A stretch of 64,000 nucleotides of DNA from assembly GCF_002007105.1 (NCBI RefSeq), contig NZ_MVBC01000017.1:48506-112505 (forward strand), in the 5' to 3' direction. A program made the translations under genes and the position numbers. Position 1 is the stretch's first letter. The number at the start of each line of letters is the position of its first letter. The notes under the pieces are model-generated. The model saw nothing but the letters and a program-made list of their open reading frames with translations. It was not told where the DNA came from and ran no database searches. Below, in pieces: positions 1,937 to 64,000 of the stretch. Source of the DNA: Hymenobacter sp. CRA2. GTDB taxonomy: Bacteria > Bacteroidota > Bacteroidia > Cytophagales > Hymenobacteraceae.

Positions 1937-3397
1937 ATGGCCCCCGACATGAAACGCTTTAACTCCCTCACGGAAGTTCGGAACGAGCTGACGGCCGGTA
2001 CTCTCACCTGCCGTCAGCTCGTCGAGTATTACTTGGATAACATCGAGCAGAAGAACGGCCAGCTGAACGCCTTCCTGGAAGTGTGGCCCGACGAAGCCCG
2101 GCAGCAGGCCGAGGCCGTCGATGCCAAGCTGGCCGCCGGCACGGCGGGCAAGCTGGCGGGCATGGTTATCGGCCTGAAAGACGTGCTGGCCTACAAAGAC
2201 CACGCGCTGCAGTCCAGCTCCCACATTCTCGACGGTTTCAAGTCGCTGTTTACCGGCACGGCCGTGCAGCGCCTCCTCGACGAAGACGCCATCCTTATCG
2301 GCCGCCAGAACTGCGACGAGTTTGCCATGGGCGCCTCGAACGAGACGTCCTACTTCGGCCCGGCCCGTAACGAAATCGATCCGGACCGCGTGCCCGGCGG
2401 TTCGTCGGGGGGCTCGGCAGTGGCCGTGCAGGCCGATATGTGCCTGGCGTCCATCGGTTCGGATACGGGCGGTTCGGTGCGCCAGCCGGCGGCGTTTTGC
2501 GGCGTCATCGGGCTGAAGCCCACCTACTCGCGCGTGTCGCGCTACGGGCTGATTGCCTACGCCTCGTCGTTTGACCAGATCGGGCCGATTACCCGCTCGG
2601 TGGATGATGCCGCGCTGCTGCTGGAAGTAATGGCCGGGCCCGATGAGTTCGACTCGACGGTGAGCCACGAGCCGGTGCCGGCGTACTCGCAGCTACTGGA
2701 GGCCAAGGCCAGCTACCGCGTGGGTTACATCCGCGACACGGTGGAGCATCCGGGCCTGGCGCCCGACATCAAGCAGGCGTTGGAAACGACTATCGAGCAG
2801 TTGCGCGGCCAGGGCCACGTGGTGGATGCAGTTGACTTTCCCTACCTCGATTACATCGTACCCTCCTACTACATCCTGACTACGGCAGAAGCCAGCTCGA
2901 ACCTGGGCCGCTACGACGGGGTGAAGTACGGCTACCGCGCCCCCAATGCCACGGATCTGGAGTCGCTCTACAAAAAGTCGCGCAGCCAGGGTTTCGGCCA
3001 GGAAGTGCAGCGGCGCATCATGCTGGGCACTTTCGTACTGTCGGCCGACTACTACGACGCGTACTACACCAAAGCCCAGCGCGTGCGGCGCCTCATCAAG
3101 GAACAAACCGACGAGCTGCTGCGCCAGTACGACTTTCTGATCCTGCCCACGGCGCCGACCACGGCTTTCCGCATCGGGGAGAATACGAAAGACCCGCTGG
3201 CCATGTATCTTGCTGATATCTTTACCGTTCAGGCCTCGTTGGCGGGCGTGCCGGCTATTTCGGTACCCGTCGGCCACGATCAGCAGGGCTTGCCCATTGG
3301 CTTGCAGGTGCTCAGCGGTGCATTCCGCGAAGCCGACATGCTGGCCTTTGCCAAGCACCTCACCGAAACCGTAGGGGCCCCGGTAGTAACACCGTAG
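1937..3397 (+). CDS. gatA: Asp-tRNA(Asn)/Glu-tRNA(Gln) amidotransferase subunit A
   Basis: 486 residues, the normal GatA length. Amidase-signature enzyme that hydrolyses glutamine and passes ammonia to GatB for conversion of Glu-tRNA(Gln) or Asp-tRNA(Asn). The Ser-cisSer-Lys triad is visible: Lys81 in IGLKD, Ser156 in PGGSSGGS, and nucleophile Ser180 in DTGGSVRQ. The downstream GVIGLKPTYSRVSRYGL stretch is typical. Start is ATG 1937; ATG 1949 is an alternative. gatB and gatC are not in the window. The next gene starts ten bases after the stop, suggesting co-transcription. Confidence 0.95.
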   Translation: MAPDMKRFNSLTEVRNELTAGTLTCRQLVEYYLDNIEQKNGQLNAFLEVWPDEARQQAEAVDAKLAAGTAGKLAGMVIGLKDVLAYKDHALQSSSHILDGFKSLFTGTAVQRLLDEDAILIGRQNCDEFAMGASNETSYFGPARNEIDPDRVPGGSSGGSAVAVQADMCLASIGSDTGGSVRQPAAFCGVIGLKPTYSRVSRYGLIAYASSFDQIGPITRSVDDAALLLEVMAGPDEFDSTVSHEPVPAYSQLLEAKASYRVGYIRDTVEHPGLAPDIKQALETTIEQLRGQGHVVDAVDFPYLDYIVPSYYILTTAEASSNLGRYDGVKYGYRAPNATDLESLYKKSRSQGFGQEVQRRIMLGTFVLSADYYDAYYTKAQRVRRLIKEQTDELLRQYDFLILPTAPTTAFRIGENTKDPLAMYLADIFTVQASLAGVPAISVPVGHDQQGLPIGLQVLSGAFREADMLAFAKHLTETVGAPVVTP

Positions 3398-3407
3398 TCG
3401 CATTGGC

Positions 3408-5468
3408 ATGAAAAAAACGCTCCGCGCCTCCGCTTTACTGTTGTTGGCTGCCGCTTTTGCCCGCCCCGCGGCGGCCCAGGTGACGCAGCCGCCCGTAGTA
3501 TTGCCGGAGGCCGGCGCGGGCGACGATACCACCCGGGTACGGCTGGAACTACAGCCTGATTCGCTGGTAGCCGAGCCCATTCAGCTTGACTCGGTGCGTT
3601 TGGCGTGGCTACAGGCCCCGCCCGAGGTGCGCGACCTGATCTGTGACCGAGTAGCTTGCTTCGATACCGAGGCGCCGCATGCCATCAACAGCACGGTGCT
3701 GGCGCACATCAACTACTTCACGCTGCGCAACCGTAACTACATGCAGCGGGTGCTGGAGCGCGAAAACCTGTACTTCCCGCTGTTTGAGAAGTACCTGACC
3801 AAATACAACCTACCGCCCGACCTGAAGTATCTGGCCGTGGTGGAATCGGCGCTGATTCCGACGGCCAAGTCGCGGGTGGGCGCTACGGGCCTGTGGCAGT
3901 TTATGGGCCCCACGGCGAATGACCTGCGCCTGCGCCGCGACGAGTGGGTGGACGAACGGATGAACCCCGAAAAGGCCACCGAAGCCGCCTGCAAGCACCT
4001 GCGCTACCTCTACGGCATATTTCACGACTGGGAACTGGTACTGGCGTCCTACAACTGGGGCGCAGGTAATATCCAACGGGTGATGCGTAAATCGGGCAAG
4101 CGTAATTTCTGGGACCTGTACCCTTACATGCCCAAGGAAACGCGCAACTACGTGCCCAGCTTCACGGCCATTATGTACGCCATGAAGTACGCGCAGCAGC
4201 ATCAGCTGCACTCGCCGGAGCTGAAGTATCAGTACGCCCAGCCCATGGATACGCTGCAGCTCAACGGGCAGGCGTTCGACATGACGCGCCTAAGCCAGGC
4301 TATCGGGCTGGATTCGGCGGCCATCGGACGTTTCAATCCTGAGCTGCGCCGCACCTACCTGCCCGACGGCTACCGGGCCTACGCCGTGAGCTTCCCCGCC
4401 GCCCTGCGCCCGCAGCTGCAGGTGGTAGACCGCGCCACGCTGTTTGGGTATTGCCGCCCGCAGCAAGCCCTGCCTGCGCCGCTGCCGGCTTTGCCGCCAC
4501 GTTTGGAAGGCGTGGAACCATTCCCTTCGGCCGCGCTGGCAACTACTACTCCCAAACGTGGAGCAGCGGCCGCGCCACCGGAAGCGGCGGAAACCCCGCG
4601 CACGCGCCGCAAGGTGCACACGGTGAAGCGCGGCCAGACGCTGGCCGAGCTAGCCGAATGGTACGGCGTTTCGCAGACGCAACTGCGCCGCTGGAACGAC
4701 CTGCCGAAGGGCCGGGCATTGCGTCCCAAGCAACAGTTGGTGGTATTCCTGCCGGCCAAGGAAAACACGACGGCACCAGCAGCCGTAGCGGTGCGTGCCA
4801 CAGCGCCCCCCGCAGTAGCTGCTATGCCGCGCACGCCGGCCGAAATGGGCCTGAAAGTGACAAAACGGGCCGTAGCGCAGGTAAGCAAGCCAGCTACCGA
4901 GCCCGAAGAACCAGCCACTGCCAGCCCCTCCCCCACTCCGGAAGTAGCCACCGAAACGCCGACGCCACGCTCAACGCGCGCAGCTAAAGCAGCCCCGGTA
5001 GAAGCGGTGGTTGCTATGGCCGAGCCCAGCAGCGTCGAAACGGCCAATGCGCAACTGCAGGCCCAGCAGGCAGCCGTGCTGGAGTATGTAGTACGTAAGG
5101 GCGACTATCTGACCAAGCTGGCGCGTGAGCGGAGCTTATCGGTGGAGCAGCTGATGGCGTGGAACAACTTACGCTCCGAAGTGGTGACGCCGGGCCAGAA
5201 ACTGCGCTTCGCTCCGCCGACCGAGCCCGAAGCCGGGGCCCAGACAGAACCCGTTAAGGCGACACGCAATCAGCGGACGGTGGCGAAAGAGGTGCCCAAG
5301 CCCGTGCGTGCTGAGCTGCCGCAGCGCGTACACATCGTGCAGCCCGGTGACACGCTATACAACATTTCGCGGCGCTATCAAGGGCTGACGGTGGAACAGC
5401 TGCGCAAGCTCAACCACCTCAAATCTGATGAGGTAAAGCCGGGCCAGAAGCTCATCGTAGCCAGCTAG
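3408..5468 (+). CDS. Secreted lytic transglycosylase with three LysM domains (MltD-like)
   Basis: 686 residues. Signal peptide at 1-24 ending AAAQ. An SLT (GH23-like) domain spans about residues 118-270, with catalytic Glu146 in the VVES motif and the downstream ATGLWQFM and ASYNWGAGN motifs. Three LysM repeats follow at about 405-450, 563-605 and 643-686, separated by Pro/Ala/Thr-rich linkers. The enzyme should cleave glycan strands of peptidoglycan to 1,6-anhydro ends while LysM anchors it to the wall. The architecture matches MltD, although the symbol is not certain in this phylum. A strong terminator follows directly. Confidence 0.9.
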   Translation: MKKTLRASALLLLAAAFARPAAAQVTQPPVVLPEAGAGDDTTRVRLELQPDSLVAEPIQLDSVRLAWLQAPPEVRDLICDRVACFDTEAPHAINSTVLAHINYFTLRNRNYMQRVLERENLYFPLFEKYLTKYNLPPDLKYLAVVESALIPTAKSRVGATGLWQFMGPTANDLRLRRDEWVDERMNPEKATEAACKHLRYLYGIFHDWELVLASYNWGAGNIQRVMRKSGKRNFWDLYPYMPKETRNYVPSFTAIMYAMKYAQQHQLHSPELKYQYAQPMDTLQLNGQAFDMTRLSQAIGLDSAAIGRFNPELRRTYLPDGYRAYAVSFPAALRPQLQVVDRATLFGYCRPQQALPAPLPALPPRLEGVEPFPSAALATTTPKRGAAAAPPEAAETPRTRRKVHTVKRGQTLAELAEWYGVSQTQLRRWNDLPKGRALRPKQQLVVFLPAKENTTAPAAVAVRATAPPAVAAMPRTPAEMGLKVTKRAVAQVSKPATEPEEPATASPSPTPEVATETPTPRSTRAAKAAPVEAVVAMAEPSSVETANAQLQAQQAAVLEYVVRKGDYLTKLARERSLSVEQLMAWNNLRSEVVTPGQKLRFAPPTEPEAGAQTEPVKATRNQRTVAKEVPKPVRAELPQRVHIVQPGDTLYNISRRYQGLTVEQLRKLNHLKSDEVKPGQKLIVAS

Positions 5469-56556: not shown

Positions 56557-57300
56557 TTAGGTTAAATTGTACCGCTGCCACCATAAAATTGCCACCAACA
56601 AGCCATAACCGGCACAAATACCCAGCTCAATTACATTTCCCGTGGCCGAGCCGGTGGAGATAATTGGGACTTTCAGGGACGTGTCGGAGAGGGGCAAAAA
56701 ATAACGGACGCCGGACTTAGTGAGCGTATCGGCCAGCAGGTGCGACATGTACCCCGCGCCGGCGTAGGCAGCCACACCGTGCCAGCCCAGGTCCTTGTTG
56801 GCGAGGTAGCCGATGTAGGTCCAGAGGGCGGCGGCCCAGATGGTGTGCGTGAAGGAGCGGTGCGAGGTAAACGGTGCTGCCGCCACGAAGGCGCCCAGCA
56901 GGCTTAGCCACAAAAACTGCCAGTACAACCCCGCCAGCACGGCGGCCACGCCGGTGAAAAGCAACGCCAGCTTGCGCGCCGACTGATTTTGCATGGCCAT
57001 GCCGATCAAAAACATCGACAGGGCGGCCGTGAAGGCCACCCGCTGGTTGGGGCCGGGCGGCAGGTTCAGGTAAGCGTACACGCCCAGCAGCGCGGCGGCT
57101 GCGGCAAAAGCCCAGCGCACGTAGTTCTGCATGAAGCCCATGCGCTTGCTCAGGCGGGAGTTGGGGTGGTCGAGGTCGGGGGCCAGGGCGGAGAAACCGG
57201 TCAGGGCAATACCGGGCAATGAGAGGCGCACATCGGGCACCACAGCGGCAATACCCACACCCGTAATCAGGCCAATAGCTAAGTGAGAAGAACCGCGCAC
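56557..57300 (-). CDS. DUF457 / YdjM-like inner-membrane metal-dependent hydrolase
   Basis: 247 residues from GTG 57300, which gives the family N-terminus (V)RGSSHLAIG and sits just after a promoter. The frame is open to 57537 but that would overlap the mfd leader. The metal-binding residues typical of the family are visible: His7 in SSHLAIG, Asp in LAPDLDHPNS, and the SHRSFTHTIW and HLLADTLT segments. About seven membrane helices. Catalytic role unproven for this family. Divergent from mfd. Confidence 0.85.
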   Translation of the reverse strand: MRGSSHLAIGLITGVGIAAVVPDVRLSLPGIALTGFSALAPDLDHPNSRLSKRMGFMQNYVRWAFAAAAALLGVYAYLNLPPGPNQRVAFTAALSMFLIGMAMQNQSARKLALLFTGVAAVLAGLYWQFLWLSLLGAFVAAAPFTSHRSFTHTIWAAALWTYIGYLANKDLGWHGVAAYAGAGYMSHLLADTLTKSGVRYFLPLSDTSLKVPIISTGSATGNVIELGICAGYGLLVAILWWQRYNLT

Positions 57301-57327
57301 TAGGAAATCGAAGGAAAAACTTGAAGG

Positions 57328-57360
57328 CGAAGGTACGCCCCACCACGGGCACGCGGGCAA
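57328..57360 (-). promoter_or_regulatory. Promoter of the DUF457 gene
   Basis: Minus strand: TTG at 57360-57358, 22-base spacer, TACCTTCG at 57335-57328 (one mismatch). The leader is about 22 bases, supporting the GTG start at 57300. Confidence 0.5.
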
Positions 57361-57550
57361 GAATTCCGACCAATCCCGGCGTTTTCTATCCCGACCAGGC
57401 CGAAACATCGCCGAAAAGCAATGGTGCAGAGCAGCTACGCGGGCCGCTGCCACCACACCGGCTCCAACCGGCTCTGCGGGAAACTTTCCCTGCCCCGCAG
57501 CGGTATTGGGTAGCAGTGCGCCCGACCGGAATTCCATCCGGCCGGGCTTC

Positions 57551-57558
57551 TACCTTTG
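57551..57558 (+). promoter_or_regulatory. -7 element of mfd
   Basis: TACCTTTG is an exact consensus match, about 24 bases before GTG 57582. No obvious -33 TTG. It rules out the 87-codon upstream extension as coding. Confidence 0.5.
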
Positions 57559-57581
57559 CCCTTCCTCGCAGCCGATACCCC

Positions 57582-60500
57582 GTGCAGACTTCCGAATTCC
57601 TCCGCCTTTACTCGCTCGACACCGACATCCAGACTCTGGCCCTGAACCTCAAGCCCGGGGTGGAAGGCGGCGCCGGCCAACGCTTCCATTTGCGCGGCCT
57701 CGTCGGCAGCCAGGATGCGGTGGTGGCCGCCACTCTGCACCTGGAGCGGCCCGACGAGCACCTGCTGTTCATCCTGCACGACCGGGAAGAAGCCGCCTAC
57801 TTCGCCTCCGACTTGCAGCACCTGGTGGGCGAGCGGGAGGAAGTGCTGACCTTCCCCAGCTCCTACAAACGCTCCTACTCCTTCGACGAGACGGAAAACG
57901 CCAACGTGCTCATGCGCGCCGAGGTGCTCAACCGGCTCAGCGGCAAATCGGGCGAGAAGGGCAAGACGGCGGACGAAAAAGCTAAAGCCAAGGCCAAGCA
58001 GGACGGGGAGCCGCTGCCCAAAGGTGCGCTTATCGTCACCTACCCCGAAGCGCTGAGCGAGAAGGTAATCAACCGCCAGAGTTTGGTACAAAACACGTTT
58101 TCGACCAAGGTCGGGGACCGGCTGGACGTGAACTTCCTGGGCGAGCTGCTGGCCGAGTACGACTTCGAGCGCACCGATTTCGTGTACGAGGCGGGGCAGT
58201 ACGCCGTGCGCGGCGGCATCGTCGACGTGTTCAGCTACGCCAACGAGCTGCCCTACCGTATCGAATTGTTCGGCGACGAAATCGACTCGATTCGCACGTT
58301 CAACCCCGAGTCGCAGCTGTCGGTGGAGCGCAAGGAGCAGATCAGCATCGTGCCCAACGTGCAGACCAAGCTGCTGACGGAGAAGCGCGAGGGGTTCCTG
58401 GAGTTTTTGCCGGCCAATACCGCCATCTGGACCAAGGACGTGCGCCAGCTGCTCGACGTGGTGGGCGAGCAGTTCGACAAGGCAGAGCAGAACTTCCAGC
58501 AGATGATGCAGGAGGCCCACGGCGTGCAGATCAAGTCCAAGCCGGAGGAGCTGTTTGAGACGACCAAGGCGCTGAAAAAGCACCTGGAGCGGTTTCCGGT
58601 GCTGGAGTTCGGCAAACGCTTCTACTACAAGGAAGCCGAGCAGGTACAGTTTACTAGTAAGCCGCAGCCCTCGTTTAACAAAGACTTCTCGCGCCTCACC
58701 AAGAACCTGCTCGAAAACCAGCAGCGCGACTTCACCACCATCCTCACCGCCGAATCCATGCGGCAGCTCGACCGGCTGCGCACCATCTTCGACGAGCTGG
58801 GCCGGGAAATCCGCTTTCAGCACCTGGCCCTGGGTCTGCGTGAGGGCTACATCGACGAGGAGCGAAAATTGCTGGTGTACACCGACCACCAGATTTTCGA
58901 GCGGTACTATCGGGCCCAGGAGAAGCGCAAGTTCTCCAAGAAAAAGGCCCTGACCCTCAAGGAGCTACGCACCCTGCAGCCCGGCGACTACGTGGTGCAT
59001 CAGGACCACGGCATTGCCCGCTTCGCCGGCCTGACGCAGGTGGAAATCAACGGGCACCAGCAGGAAGCCATCCGCCTGGTGTACCGCGACGACGACGTGC
59101 TGACCGTGAGCATCCACGCCCTGCACAAGATTGCCAAGTACTCGGGCGCGGAGGGCACGCCGCCCACAATGAGCAAGCTGGGGTCGCCGGAGTGGGAGAA
59201 CAAGAAAAAGGCGGTCAAGAAAAAGGTTAAGGACATTGCCGCCGACCTTATCCGCCTCTACGCCAAGCGCAAAACCGCGCCCGGCCACGCCTTCGCCAAG
59301 GACTCCTTCATGCAGGCCGAGCTGGAATCCAGCTTTATCTACGAGGACACGCCCGACCAGGCCAAGGCCACCGAGGACGTGAAGCACGACATGGAGCAGC
59401 CCCACCCCATGGACCGCCTCGTGTGCGGCGACGTGGGCTTCGGCAAGACGGAAGTGGCCATCCGGGCGGCCTTCAAGGCCGTAGCCGACGGCAAGCAGGT
59501 GGCCGTGCTGGTGCCCACCACCATCTTGGCCATGCAGCACTTCAAGACCTTCCGCGACCGGCTGGGCGAGCTGCCCGTCACCGTCGACTACATCAACCGC
59601 TTCAAGACCACCAAGCAGGCCAAGGCCACCTTGCAGAAGGTGGCCGAGGGCAAGACCGACATCCTCATCGGCACGCACCGGCTCACCAACAAGGACATTC
59701 AGTTCAAGCAGCTAGGTTTGCTCATCATCGACGAGGAGCAGAAGTTCGGCGTCAAGACCAAGGACAAGCTCAAGGAGCTGAAGGTGAACGTGGACACGCT
59801 CACGCTCACCGCCACGCCCATTCCGCGCACCCTGCACTTCTCGCTGATGGGCGCCCGCGACCTGTCCGTCATCAGCACGCCGCCGCCCAACCGCCAGCCG
59901 GTGCAGACGGAGCTGGCCGTGTTCGACGAGCACCTGGTGCGCGACGCCATTGCCCGCGAGCTGAAGCGCGGCGGGCAGGTGTTTTACGTGCACAACCGCG
60001 TGAAGGACCTCACCGAGCAGGCCGCCCTGATTCAGCGCCTGGTGCCCGACGCCCGGATCACCACCATCCACGGGCAGATGGAGGGTGACGTGCTCGAAAA
60101 GCGCATGATGCAGTTCGTGGAGCACGACTACGACGTGCTGGTGTCGACCAACCTTATCGAGTCGGGCCTGGACATTCCCAACGCCAACACCATCATCATC
60201 AACCGCGCCCACATGCACGGCCTCTCCGACCTGCACCAGATGCGCGGGCGCGTGGGCCGCTCCAACAAGAAAGCTTACTGCTACCTGCTCACCCCGCCCG
60301 TGGCCGGCCTCCCTTCGGACGCCCGCAAGCGCCTGAGCACCCTGGAAGAGTTTTCGGACCTCGGGGCGGGCTTCAACGTGGCCATGCGCGACCTGGACAT
60401 CCGCGGCGCCGGCAACCTGCTCGGCGGCGAGCAGTCGGGCTTCATCAACGACCTGGGCTACGAAACCTACCACCAGATTCTCGACGAAGCCGTGCAGGAG

Positions 60501-61091
60501 CTCAAGGAAACCGAGTTCCGCGACCTGTTTCTGGGCGACACGACCGGCCGCCTCAAGGACGCCGCCGACTTTGCCCGCCCCCGCGAGTGCAACGTGGAAA
60601 CCGACCTGCAAATCCTCATCCCCGACAACTACGTGGCCTCCGTCTCCGAGCGCCTGCAGCTCTATAGCAAGCTGGACCGCGCCCGGGAGCCCGAGGAGCT
60701 GCGCCGCCTGCTCACCAGCATGGTGGACCGCTTCGGCCCCCTCCCGCCCGAGGTGGAGCAGCTGGCCGACATCGTGCGCCTGCGCTGGCAGGCCTGCCGC
60801 GTGGGCTTCAGCAAAGTCTCGCTCAAGAAGGACACCCTCAAGGGCTACCTCGACGCGGGCGAAGGCCACCAGCCCTACTTCCAGGGCGAGCAGTTCGGCC
60901 AGATCCTGAACTACGTGCAGACCCACCCCCGCCGCGCCAGCATGAAGGAGCGCAAAGAGCAGCTCATCGTCACCATCACCGACGTGCCCGGCGTGCTGCC
61001 CGCCCGCGAGCTGATGAACGAGCTGGCCGTGGAATCCATGCCGCCGGTGGTAGCCGCGGCGAGCGTGTCGGATGATGAGGACGAGGGGTAG
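57582..61091 (+). CDS. mfd: Transcription-repair coupling factor Mfd
   Basis: 1169 residues from GTG 57582, chosen because of the promoter at 57551 and the low-complexity upstream frame. Domains in order: UvrB-homology region (about 1-360), RNA-polymerase-interacting domain with PGDYVVHQDHGIARF at about 467-481, two RecA-like motor domains with Walker A GDVGFGKTE at about 617-625, DEEQ at about 716 and TATPIPRTL, then the TRCF C-terminal domain. Motif VI-type STNLIESGLDIPNA is present. It displaces stalled RNA polymerase and recruits UvrA for repair. The AT-rich island begins right after its stop. Confidence 0.96.
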   Translation: MQTSEFLRLYSLDTDIQTLALNLKPGVEGGAGQRFHLRGLVGSQDAVVAATLHLERPDEHLLFILHDREEAAYFASDLQHLVGEREEVLTFPSSYKRSYSFDETENANVLMRAEVLNRLSGKSGEKGKTADEKAKAKAKQDGEPLPKGALIVTYPEALSEKVINRQSLVQNTFSTKVGDRLDVNFLGELLAEYDFERTDFVYEAGQYAVRGGIVDVFSYANELPYRIELFGDEIDSIRTFNPESQLSVERKEQISIVPNVQTKLLTEKREGFLEFLPANTAIWTKDVRQLLDVVGEQFDKAEQNFQQMMQEAHGVQIKSKPEELFETTKALKKHLERFPVLEFGKRFYYKEAEQVQFTSKPQPSFNKDFSRLTKNLLENQQRDFTTILTAESMRQLDRLRTIFDELGREIRFQHLALGLREGYIDEERKLLVYTDHQIFERYYRAQEKRKFSKKKALTLKELRTLQPGDYVVHQDHGIARFAGLTQVEINGHQQEAIRLVYRDDDVLTVSIHALHKIAKYSGAEGTPPTMSKLGSPEWENKKKAVKKKVKDIAADLIRLYAKRKTAPGHAFAKDSFMQAELESSFIYEDTPDQAKATEDVKHDMEQPHPMDRLVCGDVGFGKTEVAIRAAFKAVADGKQVAVLVPTTILAMQHFKTFRDRLGELPVTVDYINRFKTTKQAKATLQKVAEGKTDILIGTHRLTNKDIQFKQLGLLIIDEEQKFGVKTKDKLKELKVNVDTLTLTATPIPRTLHFSLMGARDLSVISTPPPNRQPVQTELAVFDEHLVRDAIARELKRGGQVFYVHNRVKDLTEQAALIQRLVPDARITTIHGQMEGDVLEKRMMQFVEHDYDVLVSTNLIESGLDIPNANTIIINRAHMHGLSDLHQMRGRVGRSNKKAYCYLLTPPVAGLPSDARKRLSTLEEFSDLGAGFNVAMRDLDIRGAGNLLGGEQSGFINDLGYETYHQILDEAVQELKETEFRDLFLGDTTGRLKDAADFARPRECNVETDLQILIPDNYVASVSERLQLYSKLDRAREPEELRRLLTSMVDRFGPLPPEVEQLADIVRLRWQACRVGFSKVSLKKDTLKGYLDAGEGHQPYFQGEQFGQILNYVQTHPRRASMKERKEQLIVTITDVPGVLPARELMNELAVESMPPVVAAASVSDDEDEG

Positions 61092-61136
61092 GTAGTGGCA
61101 TAAATATTTCATTTACAAGTAATTTCACAACTACTC

Positions 61137-61778
61137 GTGCAGCTTTTAAGTCCTCAAAAGATAGAATTGAAGCCACGTCAGGTTGTGGCTACTAGCTCAC
61201 ATGATGTATCCTATATAGATACAACAACTGAAATGCAATGCCACACAACTATTAGTGTCTTATTTTTTGGAGACAAAGATTGGCCTGTTGGAGGAACAAC
61301 ATCTGTAGACGTAAAAGTCGAGATACCTGACATTTATCGAATTAATAGCTTCGTTGTATTGCAAAGACAAATAAACGTTTGCATAAACAATGCAGAAAAT
61401 ATAAAGAACAGGCTTCTTAATACAAACCAATTCATATTAAGAAATTCAAAGAAGAAAGAAGAAATAAATATATTAGACTTAATGAAATTAAAAGATAATT
61501 TTTGCGACTTTATAAAAAACAACCCCACAGTACGACATATAGCGAATAAAGAGAAACGAAGGATGTTAAATCAGTTCATTTTGGACAGAAATATATATAC
61601 CCATGGAATTTTAAAAATAAGAAGCTCGGATAATGCTTTTATCTTAGAACATCTAGACAACCATACTAAACAGAAATCTTACTCAATAATCAATACTGAA
61701 ATACTAAAATCTTATTCACAAGCCTACTTAGAAATCGTAAATATGATTAGTGAGTTTCATTCACTAATCAAAAATTAA
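61137..61778 (+). CDS. Putative HEPN-like protein in AT-rich island
   Basis: 213 residues from GTG 61137; an in-frame ATG occurs at residue 33. The composition is Lys/Asn/Ile-rich and quite unlike mfd, which ends 45 bases before. The sequence is largely helical and contains DRNIYTHGIL, an R-x4-H motif (Arg151-His156) followed by Gly, the hallmark of HEPN RNases. Position near the C-terminal end fits that fold. No database family is recognised, so HEPN is an inference from the motif and predicted helices. Convergent with the DUF262-HEPN pair, which also carries an R-x4-H motif. Confidence 0.6.
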   Translation: MQLLSPQKIELKPRQVVATSSHDVSYIDTTTEMQCHTTISVLFFGDKDWPVGGTTSVDVKVEIPDIYRINSFVVLQRQINVCINNAENIKNRLLNTNQFILRNSKKKEEINILDLMKLKDNFCDFIKNNPTVRHIANKEKRRMLNQFILDRNIYTHGILKIRSSDNAFILEHLDNHTKQKSYSIINTEILKSYSQAYLEIVNMISEFHSLIKN

Positions 61779-61936
61779 CCTAAACACCTACGAATGCATT
61801 TAACTGGTATATCTACAGCCATTGCGAGGCATGAGGACAGTAGTAATTAAACGACGTTAGACAAGATATTAAAATGAGTCTACCCCGCCGGGGCACTCTA
61901 TCAAGAACGCGCCGATGGGGTAGATTTGACTATTAG
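61779..61936. other. Structured gap between convergent island genes
   Basis: About 160 bases. TCTACCCC (61879-61886) pairs with GGGGTAGA (61917-61924) over eight bases, with a GC-rich inner part, in otherwise AT-rich DNA. Could be a shared terminator. Confidence 0.4.
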
Positions 61937-62584
61937 TTACATTTTTAAAAGTGCTTTTTTTCTGATATCATCACATATCAACAAACAATCACCAACAATA
62001 TCTTGAGCTTTTTCCGGAGCTATACTCCTATAAAATACGCCATACTGATTTCTTTTATGAGCATACGCACCTCTTTCTTTTGTAAGACTTTTGTAAGAAG
62101 CTAGCAGCGTTGAATCTTTTGTAAGATCAATAGCCAATGGCACCAAAACTTTATCAACATATTTATATCCAAATCCGTGGCTCCTATCTATTGATTTCTC
62201 AAAATTTTCAACTAATTCCTCTAGCTTATTCCTTAAATAGTCAAACACTGTATCAATACTTTCTGGGGGCCCTTCTTTATACAAACTTATATACGAAGCT
62301 TGTGAATGAACAAGCATCAGGAGGGCATCATTAACTACTTGTCTGTACTTATAGTTTTCAACAATTGCTTTTGCGACTATAATACCAACTTGCTCAATAT
62401 ATTCCTCAAAAGCCGCATGCGCTAAAACACAATACGCTTTTACATCCAAATCATAATCATTCGGCGCAGCAAGCGGATTCTTTGCATGGGCAACTACAAA
62501 CTTATTTTCCAGCTCAACCAAGCTCTTAAACAAGTCATCAAAAGTAGATTCAATGGCTTGTTTAGCCTTAGGAAAAAATCTCAT
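61937..62584 (-). CDS. HEPN-domain protein (MAE_28990/MAE_18760-like), partner of DUF262
   Basis: 215 residues. It is all helical, with an N-terminal KAYCVLAHAAFEEYIEQVG segment and the R-x4-H motif Arg171-Gly-Ala-Tyr-Ala-His176 in KERGAYAHKRNQYG, typical of HEPN RNases of the kind often coded next to DUF262 genes. Its start codon overlaps the stop of the upstream DUF262 gene (ATGA, 62581-62584), so translation is coupled. The likely role is as an RNA-cleaving effector of a toxin-antitoxin or phage-defence pair; that is inference from family and context. Confidence 0.75.
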   Translation of the reverse strand: MRFFPKAKQAIESTFDDLFKSLVELENKFVVAHAKNPLAAPNDYDLDVKAYCVLAHAAFEEYIEQVGIIVAKAIVENYKYRQVVNDALLMLVHSQASYISLYKEGPPESIDTVFDYLRNKLEELVENFEKSIDRSHGFGYKYVDKVLVPLAIDLTKDSTLLASYKSLTKERGAYAHKRNQYGVFYRSIAPEKAQDIVGDCLLICDDIRKKALLKM

Positions 62585-63801
62585 AACACATGATTATTAA
62601 ACGGATTTCTACGAATATCAACCTGAAATGCTTGATTAACGACTTCCCTAAAATACTCGAACCTTGTAAAATAACTTGCATGTGTCTTTGTGGTTGATTC
62701 AATAGATTTTTTGAAATCATTATTATCGCACAATTTTATAAATCTAGAATGAAAATCACTTGCTCTATCATCATAACCATTTATTTCTCTATCAAGTAAA
62801 CTAAAGTAAAAAGTCTGAACTTCAAATAAAGCTCTATTAAATCTAGATTCTATTTTGCCATTCGTATATTTACGACCAACAAATTTATATCCATCAAAAA
62901 CTTTAGAAAGCCTAAGTGTTGATTCCTCAAAATCCACAAATGCCTCTTCTACTCTACTAGAATATTTATCCCAATTAGTATTTATCTCCTTCATAGAGTA
63001 ATCTAAGAATTGCTTCAAATTCCCAGTATATCCTTCACCAAAAAGGACAAAAGATAAACACCTCAATATAATCTCAACATCTCTCAATCTATTATCTGGG
63101 CCTGATAATCCCAAAACCTTATGCAAATTCAAAGTCTTGTTTGTTACTTTAAACAAATAGTCGCTAAATAAACCTTTATTCAAGACTTGCCTCAATTCTT
63201 GAGTTGATAGGGGAACAGAACCTGTATTTAATCGATAAAATATATCATACAAAACATCGTCCTTGTCAAAATTTGAAATAATTGTACATCTTAAATCAGC
63301 ATTCATGAACTGCCTAAAATCCTCTTTATAATCAGGATTATTTTTCAAATCTTGAAACGTCAAACCATTAATATCTTTTCTTACATCAAGCCCTTTAATT
63401 TTATTCTTATGCCAACTTCTGAAATTATCAGGATTAATAAATCCTGCAATAGTCATCAAACGCTGCTTACCATCGATAACAATGAATGATTTTTTCTTTG
63501 CAGGATCTTCTGCTAGGACAATCTCAGGAACTGGATAACCCACAACCAGGGATTCGACTAGCTTACTCCTTCTAAAGTCATTCCAAGCATTTCTTCTTTG
63601 AAAACTTGGATCTAAATCAATATTACCACTAGAAATCTGACTAAACATTGTCTCAATTGTCCAATCTCTTGAATAGACAATAATTTTACTAGGGTCAAAT
63701 GGCTGCAAATCAGATATAATATCTTTATTATCAGCTTCTATCCCTAGTACATCATTAATACCAGATGCATCTTCTTGTGGCTCGTTTATTCTTTTGGACA
63801 T
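62581..63801 (-). CDS. DUF262 domain protein
   Basis: 406 residues from ATG 63801. The DUF262 (ParB/sulfiredoxin-like) core is in the N-terminal half: the DPSFQRRNAWNDFRRSKLVESL segment at about 64-85 and the signature DGKQRL at Asp110-Leu115. Then RCTIISNF, FYRLNTGSVPLSTQELRQ at about 186-203 completes the DUF262 core. The C-terminal half is helical and not recognised. DUF262 proteins are found in GmrSD-type restriction and other defence loci as NTP-using nucleases. It is translationally coupled to the HEPN gene. It is AT-rich and unlike the core genes, so probably acquired. Confidence 0.85.
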   Translation of the reverse strand: MSKRINEPQEDASGINDVLGIEADNKDIISDLQPFDPSKIIVYSRDWTIETMFSQISSGNIDLDPSFQRRNAWNDFRRSKLVESLVVGYPVPEIVLAEDPAKKKSFIVIDGKQRLMTIAGFINPDNFRSWHKNKIKGLDVRKDINGLTFQDLKNNPDYKEDFRQFMNADLRCTIISNFDKDDVLYDIFYRLNTGSVPLSTQELRQVLNKGLFSDYLFKVTNKTLNLHKVLGLSGPDNRLRDVEIILRCLSFVLFGEGYTGNLKQFLDYSMKEINTNWDKYSSRVEEAFVDFEESTLRLSKVFDGYKFVGRKYTNGKIESRFNRALFEVQTFYFSLLDREINGYDDRASDFHSRFIKLCDNNDFKKSIESTTKTHASYFTRFEYFREVVNQAFQVDIRRNPFNNHVL

Positions 63802-63829
63802 ATGATGAGATGAAAGAGTAGGCTCTAAA

Positions 63830-64000
63830 TGTATAAATATTCCCTCTAGCTATAGCAGATTCACAGACAATGAAGCTGCTGGCGCTCCGCGTACGTAAGC
63901 GGCTGTATGCAAGCATACTCGATGGATTTGCGTCAGCGCGTGGCGCAGGCGCTGGCCGAGCCGGGCGCCCGGCAGGCCCAAGTGGCCGCGCGCTTTTGCG
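63830..64000 (+). mobile_element. Left end of an IS630-type insertion element (partial)
   Basis: At about 63870 the composition returns to GC-rich and a transposase reading frame begins at 63907. The exact left terminus cannot be set from one end. IS630 elements insert at TA, and TA dinucleotides at 63853-63856 are possible borders. The rest of the element lies outside the window. Confidence 0.45.
63907..64000 (+). CDS. IS630-family transposase, N-terminal fragment (cut by the window edge)
   Basis: 31 codons are visible from ATG 63907. They start M-Q-A-Y-S-M-D-L-R-Q-R-V and continue to AQVAARF, the first helices of the winged helix-turn-helix typical of IS630/Tc1-like transposases. The call rests on this N-terminal pattern alone. 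No stop is reached. Confidence 0.6.
   Translation, partial: MQAYSMDLRQRVAQALAEPGARQAQVAARFC

Follow-up and report, generated by a model that had tools for sequence, protein, structure and literature searches.

The window analysed here is a stretch of 64,000 nucleotides from Hymenobacter sp. CRA2 (contig NZ_MVBC01000017.1), in which an AT-rich island holding three genes, termed A, B and C, lies directly behind mfd. We conclude, at a probability of about 0.7, that A and B work as a PD-T4-2-like anti-phage module of two genes, that gene C is independent of them, and that the locus is a hotspot for cargo. An earlier sequence-only reading had noticed the AT-rich turn after mfd, a DUF262 gene (A) overlapping a HEPN gene (B) by ATGA, the motif R171-x4-H176 in the latter and a convergent gene (C) with R151-x4-H156, all of which were confirmed. 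Its suggestion that the three genes make up an unnamed system was not: the composition of the pair is the one published for PD-T4-2, and C does not travel with it.

The variable region is anchored on the 3' end of an open reading frame (57321-61091, plus strand) that we take, judging by its sequence, to be mfd, the gene for the transcription-repair coupling factor. Its C-terminal part was matched in 199 of the 200 family genomes searched. The low-GC (guanine plus cytosine) stretch begins where mfd stops (61091), the GC fraction being 0.635 over the 4 kb before the stop (57092-61091) versus 0.328 over 61092-63846. Gene C (61137-61778, plus strand, GTG start, 213 amino acids) starts 45 bp behind the mfd stop. 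It is followed by the pair B-A on the minus strand, which converges on C: gene B (61937-62584, 215 amino acids) and gene A (62581-63801, 406 amino acids). The stop of A and the start of B share the ATGA overlap (62581-62584, minus strand), and the sequence makes translational coupling of the two likely.

Gene A matched the Pfam family PF03235 (GmrSD_N/DUF262; E value 1e-24) and carries DGKQR at D110-R114, in the context IVIDGKQRL. D110, G111, Q113 and R114 of this nucleotide-site motif were invariant in all ten aligned HEPN-paired proteins, the window's included. In PADLOC, A scored better with the NsnA model (1.1e-72) than with PD-T4-2_A (2.3e-38). NsnA, a name not given in the papers searched, is presumably the DUF262 gene of the Menshen system; if so, the PADLOC score gives A the same DUF262 type as Menshen. 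Searching PDB chains by sequence with A returned none at 0.01. Gene B matched PF18735 (RiboL-PSP-HEPN; 1.5e-12), so that the profile search proposed for DUF262 and PF18735-type HEPN found both families. R171 and H176 of B recur in its relatives, the histidine being replaced by aspartate in one of nine. No PADLOC model was matched by B at E values up to 1, the content of that library for the PD-T4-2 HEPN protein being unconfirmed.

A and B are a real unit, since A stands directly upstream in all six of the other B loci read. The B profile matched four of 200 family genomes, including the window's. B directly follows a homologue of A, 50-54% identical, in the three others as well as in the two loci from the viral collection, and the sixth, more distant B locus (L032; loci and genomes are numbered L and G) has the same arrangement. 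Genes for HsdS, a C5 methylase and a D12 methylase were found as neighbours of other DUF262-HEPN pairs. We also surveyed the gene next to NsnA-type DUF262 genes: 65 of the 291 genomes searched had a match, and the best locus was taken from each of the 30 with the highest scores. The next gene encoded a PF18735 or PF18737 HEPN protein in nine loci (the window and eight others), an AAA_15 and AAA_21 ATPase in 18 (20 scanned) and neither in three (L012, L024, L025). Therefore, one DUF262 type combines with two kinds of effector. Comparing the ATPase-joined and HEPN-joined loci could reveal what the DUF262 part senses.

Because a DUF262 protein with a PF18735 HEPN protein is the published composition of PD-T4-2, the A-B pair belongs, by its sequence, to this known kind. 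In PMC10952713, PD-T4-2 is listed under both DUF262 and PF18735 HEPN. Protection of E. coli from phage T4 has been reported for PD-T4-2 (Vassallo et al. 2022), and its deletion in the native strain strongly raises T4 plaquing (PMC9519451). A-B has the same two parts and is nevertheless distant from the tested member: A is nearer to the NsnA model, and B lacks a PADLOC match. The likely defence role suggested in the sequence-only reading agrees with this composition, and A-B adds a branch to the DUF262-HEPN systems.

Other known systems share single features with A-B. In Menshen, the DUF262 gene stands with a predicted OLD nuclease (PMC10952713), whereas the partner of A is a HEPN protein and not an OLD nuclease or ATPase, and the island has no further gene of that size. 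GmrSD, BrxU and SspE have, like A, a DUF262 domain with a D-G-x-Q-R nucleotide site. However, A-B is without their DUF1524 nuclease (no match in A, B or C at E values up to 1), and its effector would be a separate HEPN protein. RiboL-PSP-HEPN and MAE_28990 HEPN genes occur in operon with ParB (Anantharaman et al. 2013, PMC3710099), so that A-B shares with these operons the HEPN family and a ParB-like neighbour; the part of that review available to us gives the pairing but no tested function.

By analogy with GmrSD, BrxU and SspE (PMC10952713), A would sense a phage cue through its predicted nucleotide-binding DGKQR site. It would then release B, a predicted HEPN RNase, to cut RNA, as may be expected from the HEPN review (PMC3710099). 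RNA cleavage by B would stop the infected cell, with an abortive or dormancy outcome.

Two observations weigh against such a module. By structure, B is matched best by HEPN toxins that belong to toxin-antitoxin pairs, and A-B might be a plain pair of this sort, with a HEPN toxin and a DUF262 antitoxin kept for the stability of mobile DNA and not for phage sensing. An overlapping two-gene set with a HEPN effector and the variable cargo at the locus would fit as well. We regard this as unlikely: the supposed antitoxin has 406 amino acids and a conserved D-G-x-Q-R site, the same DUF262 type joined to ATPases or to HEPN proteins fits a shared sensor, and PD-T4-2 defends against T4.

The second observation concerns an insertion sequence upstream of A. 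The left part of this element (63849-64000, plus strand) has its end near 63847-63851, which leaves 46-50 bp between it and the start codon of A; the native promoter has therefore probably been lost or moved away. The island could thus be a decaying remnant in which the insertion has silenced the pair. This is quite unlikely, as the frames of A, B and C are all intact with their motif residues kept, and insertion sequences can supply promoters. The element is cut by the contig end at window position 64000. Its first 150 bp or so were found at 15 further sites of the genome with 98-99% identity, giving 16 left ends in all. Each of the 12 copies read, that of the window among them, breaks off after the same 26 codons; this fragment, of 26 amino acids only and taken for the start of an IS630-type transposase in the sequence-only reading, had no Pfam match. 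The insertion sequence interrupts the genome assembly at the window locus.

Gene C was without match in Pfam, PADLOC or NCBIfam. It looks complete because close relatives share its LLSP start. Its family is rare: a search limited to shared short words found ten members among 5.8 billion sequences, counting the window's own. The stretch R151-N-I-Y-T-H156-G is invariant in all ten, so that conservation of R-x4-H in homologues, which the sequence-only reading had proposed to examine, was found for both B and C. B and C were each modelled as a monomer. The structural model of C, a confident one (predicted local distance difference test, pLDDT, 90.5), consists of an N-terminal beta part (about residues 1-65) and a helical C-terminal domain (66-213) with helices at 66-100, 115-128, 138-156 and 187-212, plus a short one at 107-111. 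A small sheet lies between helices three and four. HEPN proteins carry the motif R-x4-6-H with a polar residue after R, and in the four-helix domain described in PMC3710099 it stands at the end of the third main helix. In C, the polar N152 follows R151 and, in the model, the motif (151-156) ends the third main helix (138-156). None of the ten members matched a Pfam HEPN family, single members giving weak, unrelated Pfam matches alone. Alignment of C to B with hhalign gave no match, and the structure search had no HEPN chain among the matches listed. Gene C is therefore presented as a predicted HEPN-like protein, which upholds, as a prediction, the earlier claim of a second one.

Among 395 phylum genomes, gene C was found in that of the window alone, and no copy was found at the 60 other mfd loci. 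A tblastn search found no C at any of the six B loci read outside the window (L032, L148, L149, L150, L153, L154), and neither A nor B in the two stretches that hold a C relative and could be read (L003, L151), so that the three-gene co-occurrence proposed earlier was not seen elsewhere. That C, B and A form one system with two HEPN effectors, as their position in a single AT-rich stretch could suggest, is highly improbable given this distribution, the convergent position of C outside the A-B operon and the unrelated cargo gathered at the locus. Most simply, C is a free-standing mobile gene. It is likely an independent single-gene HEPN-type RNase, found at mfd because the locus collects cargo. 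Its small, clean family is suited to testing a minimal HEPN effector. One relative lies on a Hymenobacter plasmid (L003), near recombinase genes. Another, in Adhaeribacter aquaticus (L151, 7681-8375), is split in two frames and stands beside a Prophage_tail gene in a prophage-like stretch; the viral collection IMG/VR holds the same stretch (L152).

DUF262-HEPN pairs were also found behind mfd in two other genomes: a related A-B pair directly behind it, without C, in G275 (L072), and a pair 4.8-6.7 kb behind it in G037 (L083). Therefore we read the mfd flanks in 61 loci, covering every one of the eight genomes in the genus, the window's among them, and 53 of the 191 further genomes of the family in which mfd was matched. 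The 53, all from one other genus (g2), were taken by mfd similarity; G037 was added for its DUF262 match, and G400 and G122 were left out though ranking among them. A stretch of 800 bp below 45% GC lies within 2.6 kb of the mfd stop in 20 of the 61 loci, the window included. Among the loci with a full 8 kb, such a stretch was present near the mfd stop in 18 of 58, versus 3 of 58 at 5.2-8 kb.

Cargo was scanned with Pfam for 30 proteins from 20 loci, a part of the reading frames. NACHT proteins were found in L082 and L106 (and below the cut-off in L107), a metallophosphatase-nSTAND protein in L112, and OLD-type ATPases with TOPRIM in L080 and L130. Other AAA15/AAA21 ATPases occurred in L065 and L115, AAA21 with DUF4276 in L066 and L128 (DUF4276 below the cut-off in the latter), and AAA15-DUF3696 in L143. 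Single loci held Schlafen AlbA_2 (L108), DUF6575 (L121), HTH-ImmA/IrrE (L068) and DUF262-HEPN (L083). The scanned proteins of L067, L119, L129, L131 and L140 (5 of 20 loci) had no Pfam match. Apart from these 20 loci, L074 gave a peptidase match alone, below the cut-off. Ten cargo proteins were also compared with PADLOC. Models were matched in L080 (Old, 2.3e-54), L066 (HEC-01B, 2.6e-68) and L112 (PDC-S60, 4.1e-84), two DUF262 proteins matched NsnA, and L121 matched two models weakly; for L082, L106 and both HEPN proteins there was none. The mfd 3' flank is thus a hotspot of varied, likely anti-phage cargo, new as far as we found. With the Pfam-free loci, it would offer a fixed address for mining unknown defence genes. 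The defence hotspots of other bacteria described in PMC9519451 are prophages, integrative and conjugative elements and integrase-linked sites. Like them, the mfd flank is a conserved place with variable defence cargo; it differs in its mfd 3' end anchor, in displaced gene ends of varying length and in the absence of a recombinase domain from the scanned cargo.

Displaced copies of the mfd 3' end were found downstream of mfd in 8 of the 61 loci (L066, L069, L070, L083, L106, L108, L119, L128). The ten copies measure 46-399 bp and are 81-100% identical to the end of their own gene. They start 101 to 405 bp before the gene end, and seven run to within 7 bp of it. All are oriented as mfd, none antisense. 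As controls, internal mfd windows gave no copies except a continuation in L108, and other windows of the same loci gave copies in 4 of 116 at E values below 1e-10. In L083, successive units are separated by three mfd ends, of which the last immediately precedes the DUF262-HEPN pair. No recombinase domain was detected in the 30 scanned cargo proteins at E values up to 0.01. New cargo would bring its own mfd end and displace the older resident one, which would stay beyond the cargo. Copies of such varied length suggest that one side formed by homologous pairing in mfd and the opposite side by an illegitimate join, rather than at one fixed recombinase site. In the window's genome no second mfd end was found and the contig ends at the insertion sequence; for the window, the route is therefore one that we infer.

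We tentatively propose, at somewhat less than even odds, that the mfd 3' end in Hymenobacteraceae anchors a recombinase-free cassette array of defence modules (among them DUF262-HEPN, NACHT, OLD, AAA-DUF4276). Cargo would come joined to donor mfd ends that take the place of the resident one by homologous pairing, the old end being left as a spacer, and would stack unit after unit while mfd, a housekeeping gene, remains whole; the window would be one occupied copy, and gene C would found a new single-gene HEPN RNase family. The flank would then be a case for studying accretion anchored on a gene end with no visible recombinase. Alternatively, a site-specific integrase may target the mfd 3' end, the cargo being small elements that lost an integrase or never carried one. 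Genes targeted by integrases are typically restored, with displaced ends left behind them, and the uniform orientation of the ten copies fits this as well. Moreover, the copies of L066 and L070 have starts no more than 3 bp apart. However, copy starts are scattered overall and the scanned cargo showed no recombinase domain, which makes an integrase somewhat unlikely.

A few minor features complete the description. A terminator-like hairpin 3' of B (61881-61895, minus strand) is weak, two such sites being found against 1.8 expected in shuffled sequences. A small TonB_C protein recurs beside displaced mfd 3' ends (L069 and L106 by Pfam; L070 by 74% DNA identity to L069); the cargo is therefore partly non-defence. 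A GC-rich AAA_21 ATPase cassette is common to the mfd flanks of two genera, in L066 (G002; 174-1436 and 1745-1985 after the mfd stop) and L083 (G037; 2662-3909 and 4236-4476), with blastn identities of 74% and 86% and at differing array positions. In L066 it is accompanied by DUF4276/HEC-01B. Finally, four genomes share a right flank beyond differing cargo (blastn 74-82%), at 4368-5216 in L065, 3568-4456 in L066, 4844-5626 in L067 and 2550-3222 in L072, counted from the mfd stop. The best match of its L066 reading frame in the window's genome was at 26%. This shared flank may be where the variable region ends on its far side.
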